In this document: positions 4,350 to 6,451 of the stretch, piece after piece | Position numbering within the stretch: the first letter of the stretch is position 1 | Layout of the letters: each line of letters starts with the position of its first letter | Translations under genes and position numbers: made by a program | Notes under the pieces: model-generated | Database searches by the model: none | Told to the model about the DNA's origin: nothing | The model's input: only the letters and a program-made list of their open reading frames with translations | NCBI GenBank assembly: GCA_020353355.1 | Contig: CP070694.1 | Location: 3,627,016 to 3,662,553 of the forward strand | Length of the DNA: 35,538 nt | DNA from: Desulfobacterales bacterium | Lineage (GTDB): Bacteria; Desulfobacterota; Desulfobacteria; Desulfobacterales; JAHEIW01 | Direction of reading: 5' to 3'

Positions 4350-4360
4350 GCCTATCGTAA

Positions 4361-4461
4361 ACCACGAATGCACACGAATGACCACGAATTCAATCGATGT
4401 TTAGACCAGAAGCGCTTATAACATAATCTCATTTCGTGAAAATTCGTGCTAATTCGTGGCT
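4361..4461. repeat. Inverted TTCGTG-type intergenic repeat
   Basis: Two clusters of a short motif face each other. ACCACGAAT and related CACGAAT units fill 4361-4390, and TTCGTG units fill 4431-4461 on the same strand, so the arms are near reverse complements around a 40-bp centre. Such CACGAAT/ATTCGTG clusters occur as dispersed intergenic repeats in several bacterial groups (recalled, not searched). It lies between the FemAB-like gene and the fmdB-fur promoter. Confidence 0.5.
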
Positions 4462-4478
4462 TAATTAAAACATTGAAT

Positions 4479-4492
4479 TGGGTAATTACCCA
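4479..4492. promoter_or_regulatory. 14-bp perfect palindrome upstream of the fmdB-fur promoter
   Basis: TGGGTAATTACCCA is a perfect palindrome ending 5 bp before the -35 hexamer at 4498. The position and symmetry suggest an operator for a dimeric regulator. The Fur-FeoA fusion encoded two genes downstream is a natural candidate for autoregulation, but the site does not resemble a classic Fur box, so the binding protein is unknown. Confidence 0.4.
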
Positions 4493-4497
4493 TTTTC

Positions 4498-4525
4498 TTG
4501 ACATTTTTGGTAAGATAAATAATAT
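4498..4525 (+). promoter_or_regulatory. Sigma-70-type promoter for fmdB and fur-feoA
   Basis: A perfect -35 TTGACA (4498-4503) is followed after 16 bp by TAATAT (4520-4525), which matches 4 of 6 bases of the -10 consensus. The ATG of the fmdB-type gene is 45 bp downstream and carries a GGGAG ribosome binding site at 4559-4563. Confidence 0.5.
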
Positions 4526-4569: not shown

Positions 4570-4815
4570 ATGCCGATATATGAATTTAGATGCCTTAAAT
4601 GTGATGAATGCTTTGAATTGCTCGTCATGAACAAAGATGATCAGTTAGAAATGCGATGCCCGGCGTGCACGTCAGAGGAGTTTGAGCGAGTTCTGAGTGC
4701 ATCCTGCCACAGTATGAGCAGCAATTCCTCAAAAAATCAGGGGGCCCAGTCTCAAACCCGGTCCTGCCCGAGCGGCACCTGCACCACTTACGACATCCCC
4801 GGACCCAATCGGTAA
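4570..4815 (+). CDS. FmdB-type zinc ribbon protein
   Basis: An 81-residue protein with the hallmark MPIYEFRCLKCDECFE start of FmdB zinc ribbons. The Cys pairs CLKC (residues 8-11) and CPAC (about 31-34) would bind one zinc. The rest is a Ser/Gln-rich, probably disordered tail. FmdB was named as a putative regulator of formamidase genes, but most family members have no known function. It is first in a + strand cluster with the Fur-FeoA gene, only 5 bp upstream of that start, so they are very likely co-transcribed. Confidence 0.85.
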   Translation: MPIYEFRCLKCDECFELLVMNKDDQLEMRCPACTSEEFERVLSASCHSMSSNSSKNQGAQSQTRSCPSGTCTTYDIPGPNR

Positions 4816-4820
4816 TTTTC

Positions 4821-5507
4821 ATGAAACAGATTCACCTTCAAGAAAAAGAACAATTTAAAAAGCTGTTTAAACAGGAACACATTGACAATTTCGAGGATCG
4901 ATTTAAAATTCTGGAAGTGTTCCTGCAAACCGAAAAACATGTTACGGTGGATGAATTGGTTCAACGTCTCGGTCAAAACGGCTGGGATTTGGACCCGCAA
5001 TTTGTCAGGGAAACCCTGAAATTATTATGCCGTTTCGGTTTTGCCCATCGGAGCCAATTTGACAATGGCCAGGTCCGTTATGAACACCGACATTTAGGGC
5101 AACATCATGATCATATGATTTGCACCAAATGCAGAAAGATTTTCGAGTTCGAAGAAGATCAACTCGAAAAACTGCAAATCCAGATCGCCGCTGCCTACGG
5201 CTTCCACATGCTTCAACATAGGATGGAAATTTACGGCATTTGTTCGAATTGCTTGAAAAGTCATATCCAATTAATGCCGTTGGCAATGGCAAAACCTGGA
5301 GAAAAGTTGGTTCTCAAAGACTTCAATGGCGGTTCCAACGTCCGGATGCGGTTGTTGACGATGGGGTTACGACTTGGCGATGAAATCGAGGTAATCACCA
5401 ATCATAACCAGGGCCAAATTGCAGTGGCAGTAGATTTTAAACGCTACGTCCTGGGGCGCGGACTTGCCCAAAAGATTTTGGTTGAGCCCCTTAAACGTCG
5501 AAAATAA
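4821..5507 (+). CDS. Fur-family regulator fused to a FeoA (SH3-like) domain
   Basis: A 228-residue protein with two parts. Residues 1-150 look like a Fur-type repressor: an N-terminal winged helix (ILEVFLQTEKHVTVDEL) and a dimerisation/metal region with HHDHMICTKC (95-104) and CSNC (141-144), the usual structural zinc cysteine pairs. Residues 152-225 match FeoA: LKDFNGGSNVRMRLLTMGLRLGDEIEV (split as seen) and the ending GRGLAQKILVEPL. FeoA is normally a separate small partner of the FeoB ferrous-iron transporter, or the C-terminal domain of DtxR/MntR-type regulators. A Fur-FeoA fusion is uncommon and suggests that the SH3-like domain modulates metal sensing. It follows the fmdB-type gene by 5 bp and precedes the radical SAM gene by 8 bp. 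No feoB is in the window. Confidence 0.88.
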   Translation: MKQIHLQEKEQFKKLFKQEHIDNFEDRFKILEVFLQTEKHVTVDELVQRLGQNGWDLDPQFVRETLKLLCRFGFAHRSQFDNGQVRYEHRHLGQHHDHMICTKCRKIFEFEEDQLEKLQIQIAAAYGFHMLQHRMEIYGICSNCLKSHIQLMPLAMAKPGEKLVLKDFNGGSNVRMRLLTMGLRLGDEIEVITNHNQGQIAVAVDFKRYVLGRGLAQKILVEPLKRRK

Positions 5508-5515
5508 TTAAGACG

Positions 5516-6451
5516 ATGCAATCATTTGAACCAGCTTATATCAAAACCTTTGAAGAAGGTCTGCTTGGAGATAAAATTGCAACGGTACACGATATTTTAA
5601 GCGCCTGCGAACTTTGCCCTCGGCGCTGCGGTGTCGACCGGCTTTCCGGCGAAACGGGGGTTTGTAATACCGGCAAAAATGCGATGGTATCCAGTTATAA
5701 TCCGCATTTTGGTGAAGAAGCACCGCTGGTAGGATCCCGTGGCTCGGGTACCATCTTTTTTACCTACTGCAACCTCATGTGCCTGTTCTGTCAGAACTAC
5801 GACATCAGCCACGAAGGTTATGGCCAGGAAGTCTCAGCCGAACAAATCGCTGCGATGATGCTCGCCCTGCAGGAACAGGGGTGTCATAATATCAATTTTG
5901 TTACCCCCTCCCATGTGGTACCCCACATCCTCTCAGCCGTGGAGATTGCTGTTCAAAACGGTCTTAACGTTCCCCTGGTTTATAATACCGGTGGTTATGA
6001 TCGCGTTGAAACTTTAAAAGTTCTGGAGGGCGTGTTTGACATTTACATGCCCGATTTTAAATTTTGGGACCCTGAAATTGCGCAATCCGCTTGTGAGGCA
6101 CCAGATTACCCTGAAATCGCGCGTGAGGCACTGCTTGAGATGCATCGGCAAGTCGGCGATTTGATCATCGACGATAGGGGAATAGCCCAACGTGGAGTGC
6201 TGATCCGTCACCTCGTACTGCCAAACGGACTCGCCGGTACGCGTGAGGTCATGCAATTTATTGCAGCGAAAATTTCACCCAACAGTTATGTAAACGTAAT
6301 GTCGCAATACCGCCCCTGCGGCAGGGCTGCTGAAGTGAACGGATTATCTTCATATCTGCCACCCGGCGATTATCGACAAGCGCTGGAACTCGCCAGGCAG
6401 GCGGGCATAACCCGGCTGGACCAACCCCGGCGGGTTTTTATTTTGCGCTAA
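5516..6451 (+). CDS. PflA-like radical SAM protein (COG1313, PflX family)
   Basis: A 311-residue radical SAM enzyme. The CxxxCxxC iron-sulfur motif is TYCNLMCLFCQN (C85, C89, C92), preceded by an extra cysteine cluster CELCPRRCGV (31-40) with C50, typical of the COG1313 group. Later signatures are NFVTPSHVVP, YNTGGYD, YMPDFKFWD and the C-terminal VMSQYRPCGRA. The group resembles activases of pyruvate formate-lyase, but its natural partner is unknown. The start is only 8 bp after the fur-feoA stop, so it is likely in the same operon; a link to iron regulation would make sense for an Fe-S enzyme but is inference. Confidence 0.85.
   Translation: MQSFEPAYIKTFEEGLLGDKIATVHDILSACELCPRRCGVDRLSGETGVCNTGKNAMVSSYNPHFGEEAPLVGSRGSGTIFFTYCNLMCLFCQNYDISHEGYGQEVSAEQIAAMMLALQEQGCHNINFVTPSHVVPHILSAVEIAVQNGLNVPLVYNTGGYDRVETLKVLEGVFDIYMPDFKFWDPEIAQSACEAPDYPEIAREALLEMHRQVGDLIIDDRGIAQRGVLIRHLVLPNGLAGTREVMQFIAAKISPNSYVNVMSQYRPCGRAAEVNGLSSYLPPGDYRQALELARQAGITRLDQPRRVFILR

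Follow-up and report, generated by a model that had tools for sequence, protein, structure and literature searches.

The fusion gene and its operon

The window, the whole stretch of 35,538 nucleotides of a Desulfobacterales genome that was analysed (contig CP070694.1), carries on its forward strand an operon in which a fur~feoA fusion gene stands between an fmdB-type gene and a gene for a radical SAM enzyme. The end of fmdB is separated from fur~feoA by 5 bp, and fur~feoA from the radical SAM gene by 8 bp. These near-contiguous genes and their family matches bear out the operon neighbours, FmdB and radical SAM, that the initial annotation had named. A similar promoter was found before the operons of many relatives. 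The features of the operon are as follows:

4479-4492, + strand: palindrome TGGGTAATTACCCA, an operator candidate that was not borne out
4498-4525, + strand: promoter TTGACA-16-TAATAT, 5' of fmdB
4570-4815, + strand: fmdB-type zinc-ribbon gene, the first gene of the operon (FmdB-type zinc-ribbon match)
4821-5507, + strand: fur~feoA gene, a single ATG-to-stop frame of 228 aa, Fur fold joined to FeoA
5516-6451, + strand: radical SAM gene, 3' of fur~feoA (Radical_SAM match)

Further upstream, between a FemAB-like gene and the fmdB operon, positions 4358-4463 hold CACGAA/TTCGTG repeats, direct as well as inverted, with 44-nt arms that are 70% complementary.

Within the fusion gene the following parts were distinguished:

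4821-4877, + strand: N-terminal stretch, residues 1-19, with conserved H5, E8, Q11, F12, L15 and F16
4884-4886, + strand: Asp22, in place of Fur Lys15 (Lys14 in E. coli)
4896-5234, + strand: Pfam FUR match, residues 26-138 (E 1.1e-23, 84.1 bits, cut-off 23.1)
4995-5033, + strand: helix 59-71, in place of the Fur recognition helix; Arg63 and Glu64 replace Tyr56 and Arg57
5082-5132, + strand: metal-ligand stretch E88 ... H95 H96 D97 H98 ... C101, C104
5241-5252, + strand: second Cys pair, C141 and C144
5274-5489, + strand: Pfam FeoA match, residues 152-223 (E 1.5e-16, 60.7 bits, cut-off 23, full model 1-74)

Both Pfam domains lie far above their cut-offs in one open reading frame, so that the proposed union of Fur and FeoA in one protein holds, and the FeoA domain, which had been placed at residues 152-225, was located accurately to two residues. 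Modelling with AlphaFold2 gave the FeoA half block-mean pLDDT values of 89-96 across residues 151-220 and a fold that superposes on the solved FeoA structure 3e19 with a TMt of 0.89-0.91 and an rmsd of 1.2-1.4. The pTM of Fur~FeoA was 0.45, and the relative placing of the two domains is not resolved by the model. A search of the PDB returned no solved structure spanning both domains; the matches were either Fur-family chains within about residues 5-150 or FeoA 3e19 over residues 150-223.

The fusion is not a sequencing artefact, because the same frame is open in 28/40 near-relative genomes, that of the window included. When the window was compared with a relative (L037), dN was 0.04-0.08 and dS 0.79-1.58 in all parts of the fusion, indicating that every domain of Fur~FeoA is under constraint. 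The N-terminal stretch (M..IH.QEKEQFKKLF) is among the best-conserved parts; E. coli Fur starts later and has little in common with it. H5 and Q11 were each found in 92 of the 93 orthologues of our conservation table, from which L034, L035 and L036 were left out.

Metal ligands, DNA-contact residues and operators

The Fur half belongs to the Fur family (PF01475) both by the cut-off of the model and by its metal ligands. H40, E88, H96, D97, H98, C101, C104, E116, H133, C141 and C144 are invariant in the 93 orthologues, and H95 and E109 deviate in one orthologue each. In E. coli numbering, H33, E81, H88, H90, C93, C96 and H125 are present at all 56 fusion loci, and E108 at 52/56. These 56 loci represent 55 genomes, since G025 is counted twice (L034, L157).

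The residues that contact DNA behave differently. In crystals of MgFur with DNA, as described in PMC4506495, Tyr56 is packed against thymines, a guanine is held by Arg57, and Lys15 inserts into the minor groove; the same report describes R57A as abolishing binding and Y56A and K15A as weakening it. In a further alignment, made with HMMER against E. coli Fur, Arg63-Glu64 of the window protein likewise fell on Tyr56-Arg57, gapless. The complete Lys15/Tyr56/Arg57 trio was found at none of the 56 fusion loci and in 49 of 52 Fur proteins without FeoA. Of these plain Fur proteins, 40 were picked from non-fusion matches, and 12 are encoded at loci where a fusion or an adjoining fur-feoA pair is present. 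All 52 plain Fur proteins have a basic residue at position 57, compared with a single fusion locus (Lys); the remaining fusion loci have Glu or Asp (44/56) or Gln, Asn, Ser or Cys (11/56). A Fisher test on this position yields a p near 1e-30; as the sequences are related, this value illustrates the difference and does not serve as an independent test. Tyr56 is present in 51/52 plain Fur proteins and absent from all 56 fusion loci, 26 of which have Arg instead. At position 15 the fusion loci carry mostly Asp or Glu (38/56; basic in 4/56), and Phe stands at the Thr54 position in 45/56. Altogether, the counterparts of Lys15, Thr16, Thr54, Tyr56 and Arg57 are nearly all lost, and Arg19, a phosphate contact, is retained at 47/56 loci. 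The designation as a Fur-type repressor is therefore doubtful: throughout the family the DNA-contact side chains have given way, in most cases to acidic or other residues, and the metal ligands were kept.

The region of helix 59-71 is conserved rather than decayed (F61 in 90, T65 in 93 and G73 in 93 of 93 orthologues), and together with the low dN everywhere this argues that the winged helix has a function. In the fusion the wing (E. coli residues 66-80) has a mean charge of +1.54, compared with -0.55 in plain Fur, possibly pointing to a remaining nucleic-acid partner or another acidic one. We also considered the charge of the DNA-binding domain as proof that DNA is not bound. This is suggestive only; E. 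coli Fur comes to -1 on the same count.

A palindrome search in 89 regions upstream of fusion-headed operons gave one strong signal only, the -35 box TTGACAA. As a positive control, the same method was applied to 12 operons headed by a plain fur, and it recovered the palindrome TTGaaAttnaaTttCAA over the promoter, which is close to the delta-proteobacterial FUR box as given in PMC545781. Its 17-bp model scored 48.9, compared with 24.4-29.4 in four shuffles, and its 19-bp model 57.8, compared with 30.7-34.0; start codons of this plain-fur set were assigned by rule, and a few boxes may be cut. Four random draws of at most 12 fusion-headed operons reached 32.4-36.7 with the 17-bp model, and three of them found the -35 box. 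Using the dFUR consensus from PMC545781, matches of at least 12/16 occurred upstream of 24/91 fusion operons compared with 21.8% in shuffles, which is no signal, and upstream of 5/9 chosen plain fur genes compared with 11.1%. No E. coli Fur-box match was found in the 91 regions. Thus, where a DNA-binding repressor should have a Fur box at its own operon, only the -35 box was found for the fusion.

The palindrome TGGGTAATTACCCA in the window was rejected as an operator. Its 12-bp core has one exact copy in the genome, and with at most one mismatch it occurs at 8 places, compared with 10 for the reversed control pattern. It is not conserved either, no exact dyad being common to more than 4 of the 91 upstream regions. 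Separately, a FUR-box-like palindrome was noticed just past the -10 element of operonic plain fur genes (L140, L145, L137, L151, L164, L163, L162, L166-L168, L171).

Genomic context, distribution and origin

Outside the window's own lineage, Fur~FeoA usually stands in ferrous-iron transport operons. A feoB follows within 2.5 kb on the same strand at 50/75 loci of a genome contig scan (5 of the 80 scan loci, with less than 2.6 kb of downstream sequence, were omitted) and at 15/25 testable loci of the order and phylum sets. Between fur~feoA and the radical SAM or next gene, many relatives have a short feoA together with a feoB of about 710-730 aa. No feoB is near at the remaining 25/75 and 10/25 loci, among which are the window's close kin: in the window's own lineage feoAB is absent from the fusion locus, and its genome has feoA-feoB elsewhere (C1:1055459). 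The initial idea of a link between iron sensing and a Feo module is supported. Relatives have feoA-feoB at the same spot, which could not be seen from the window's letters alone.

The feo operons also contain longer and shorter versions of this arrangement. At five loci (L180, L182, L186, L199, L200) a triple fusion, Fur~FeoA~FeoA, stands before feoB. One genome (G169, L163) has the unfused order fur-feoA-feoA-feoB, and in G104 (L162) and at a second place in G193 (L164) an unfused fur adjoins feoA; in all of these a stop codon lies between fur and feoA. The unfused arrangement at L163 could have been the source of the fusion, and L162-L164 likely represent the state before it. In three other operons (L166, L167, L171), the gene after fur-feoB encodes a protein of 214-243 aa that ends in a FeoA domain and by eye resembles DtxR; it would, by this assignment, be a second type of metalloregulator with FeoA in a feo context. 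The window's own genome encodes a 253-aa FeoA-bearing protein, likewise DtxR-like by eye (L127:3460-4221, C1 near 1679999).

A full-length fusion was found by protein search in 28/40 near-relative genomes (own included, 35-100% identity). With a profile of 37 members, an open full-length fusion was detected in 30 of 198 Desulfobacterota genomes drawn evenly across the phylum, again including that of the window. The genome contig scan, with the window protein alone as query, kept 80 loci of 198 confirmed relatives, whose record titles are nearly all Desulfobacterales, Desulfobacteraceae or Deltaproteobacteria; beyond Desulfobacterota the survey consists of this one single-protein scan, which detects close relatives only. 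The architecture had been regarded as unusual, and these counts speak against that. The initial annotation would have been refuted by an architecture that is both widespread and already characterised. Widespread in Desulfobacterota it is, but no published description was found in the openly accessible journal literature, searched by title and beginning of abstract. All parts were known already; neither their combination nor the loss of the DNA-contact residues turned up in the literature searched.

To trace the origin of the two halves, trees were built for each. The Fur tree comprises 68 domains (34/56 fusion, 22/40 control and 12/12 operon Fur), and in it a branch with a support of 98 sets the fused Fur domains apart, which fits one origin of the fused lineage. 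The FeoA tree (84 domains, 76 columns) is poorly resolved inside; 18 F1 and 15 S rows were drawn at random from the first set, and the over-long-frame L065_D and L077_D were omitted. The first FeoA, the one fused to Fur, falls in another part of the tree than the feoB-adjacent FeoA proteins, and its nearest free relatives are short FeoA proteins in G010, G020, G029 and G033, two of which (L196, L197) adjoin a feoB. Hence the fused FeoA came from Feo, and not evidently from regulators of the DtxR type. The second FeoA of the triple fusions groups with the feoB-adjacent FeoA proteins. Since triple fusions occupy at least two parts of the tree, this FeoB-partner type of FeoA was probably gained more than once. 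The free FeoA proteins of the unfused L162 and L163 have long branches and unsure positions.

Interpretation and comparison with known systems

We tentatively favour the reading, which in our judgement has nearly an even chance of being correct, that Fur~FeoA is an iron sensor derived from Fur, which acts on the Feo system through protein contact. A Fur paralogue would have been recruited into the Feo ferrous-iron import system. Its Fur half, given the conserved ligands, would keep the metal-sensing dimer core, and the former DNA-binding winged helix, given the loss of contact residues, would no longer read Fur boxes. The FeoA half, descended according to the tree from a feo-operon FeoA, would dock on the Feo machinery, most likely on the cytoplasmic part of FeoB or on a partner FeoA. 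Iron loading of the Fur half could then directly alter the activity or stability of FeoB, by analogy with FeoC in enterobacteria. What the analysis shows is the architecture, its conservation, the operon context and the loss of the contact trio; the protein target, the direction of the effect and the absence of DNA binding are what we infer here. The reading is based on the proximity of feoB, the triple fusions, the unfused fur-feoA-feoA-feoB order and the loss of the contact trio next to intact metal ligands, and also on the lack of a palindrome beyond the -35 box in the upstream regions, the constraint on all domains and the fact that FeoC (PF09012) was not found in 27 of the 28 fusion genomes (it was found in one). 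Several observations argue against it: feoAB lies away from the fusion locus in the window's own lineage, 25/75 and 10/25 loci have no near feoB, Arg19 is mostly kept, and the basic wing together with the frequent Arg at position 56 makes another contact with DNA possible.

A further-reaching form of this proposal, plausible and held with less confidence, is that a Fur lineage gave up DNA binding and became a FeoA-attached, iron-sensing subunit of Feo, which would provide direct end-product feedback on Fe(II) uptake, and onto which some species weld a FeoB-partner FeoA (Fur~FeoA~FeoA).

The chief rival, which we regard as less likely, is that Fur~FeoA is still a genuine transcription factor but reads a different operator. 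In this case its recognition helix would have been rewired (Tyr56 to Arg, Arg57 to Glu or Asp), and FeoA would stabilise the metal-loaded dimer, as the SH3/FeoA domain does in DtxR/MntR; according to PMC4805248, the C-terminal FeoA domain of PgMntR is required for Mn and DNA binding. The conserved recognition helix and the more basic wing are consistent with such a factor. So is the finding that Fur~FeoA is the sole Fur-family protein found in 5/28 fusion genomes (G011, G012, G017, G026 and G028, with completeness of 94, 79, 99, 92 and 100%), an observation equally compatible with a gene regulator that has survived and with a subunit of the transporter. However, nearly all counterparts of the five Fur contact residues are gone, and the upstream regions yielded only the -35 box with a method that worked on the positive control; dFUR matches stayed at chance level and E. 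coli Fur-box matches at zero.

It is improbable that Fur~FeoA is an anti-repressor that forms mixed dimers with plain Fur, unable to hold DNA, and so tunes the Fur regulon. A plain fur stands directly before fur~feoA at 6/25 order and phylum loci (L165, L180, L183, L185, L186, L188), the dimer-core residues are common to both proteins, and inactive mixed dimers were proposed by Rodionov et al. for a Fur lacking the DNA-binding domain (PMC545781). At the 80 loci of the contig scan, however, no plain fur lies upstream, and the five genomes in which no other Fur-family protein was found argue against a purely anti-repressor role and are compatible with an iron regulator there.

Even less probable is that the protein carries or buffers iron and passes Fe(II) from FeoB on to Fe-S or radical SAM enzymes. 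In the contig scan fmdB lies upstream of the fusion at 49/80 loci and a radical SAM gene downstream at 35/75, which makes them recurrent neighbours but not universal ones. Moreover, Fur metal sites are built for sensing. Finally, a neutral read-through of adjoining fur and feoA without new function, for which the adjacent unfused genes at L162, L163 and L164 would be the starting material, is very improbable, as a well-supported branch sets the fused Fur domains apart and all parts are strongly constrained.

A chimera of iron sensor and FeoA in feo operons bears on the regulation of FeoB after its synthesis and on operons with several FeoA proteins, which a 2022 survey of Feo evolution named as meriting further study (PMC8749426). 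If Fur~FeoA is indeed a Fur that does not bind DNA, a classic metalloregulator fold would have turned into a transporter regulator, and the name "transcriptional repressor" would be wrong for these genes across many sulfate-reducing bacteria.

Compared with known systems, Fur~FeoA shares with MgFur and E. coli Fur the fold, all metal-site residues, the HHDH motif and the two CxxC pairs, but differs by the lost Lys15/Tyr56/Arg57 trio and the appended FeoA. It contains a whole FeoA domain (PF04023, e.g. 3e19, TMt 0.91), which, unlike free FeoA, is covalently joined to Fur and belongs to another branch than the feoB-adjacent "KYAPLKDP" FeoA of the same operons. FeoC, a winged-helix protein encoded in feo operons, is reported in PMC10710835 and PMC5519574 to bind FeoB and protect it from FtsH. 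Its likeness to the fusion would be one of mode of working only, as FeoC has a Cys-rich motif, whereas the metal site of the fusion is of the Fur type and the window protein has no PF09012 match among its Pfam matches to E 1. In the FeoA-FeoB protein of Bacteroides fragilis, another Feo fusion, FeoA is attached to the transporter (PMC8980893) and not, as here, to the iron sensor. DtxR/MntR proteins with FeoA (SH3), including PgMntR with two FeoA domains, likewise combine a metalloregulator with one or two C-terminal FeoA domains. They bind DNA (PMC4805248), and their DNA-binding and dimer core is unrelated to that of the fusion: the window protein has no Pfam match to DtxR-type DNA-binding or dimer domains to E 1, and its NCBIfam MntR match is limited to residues 151-223, the FeoA part.
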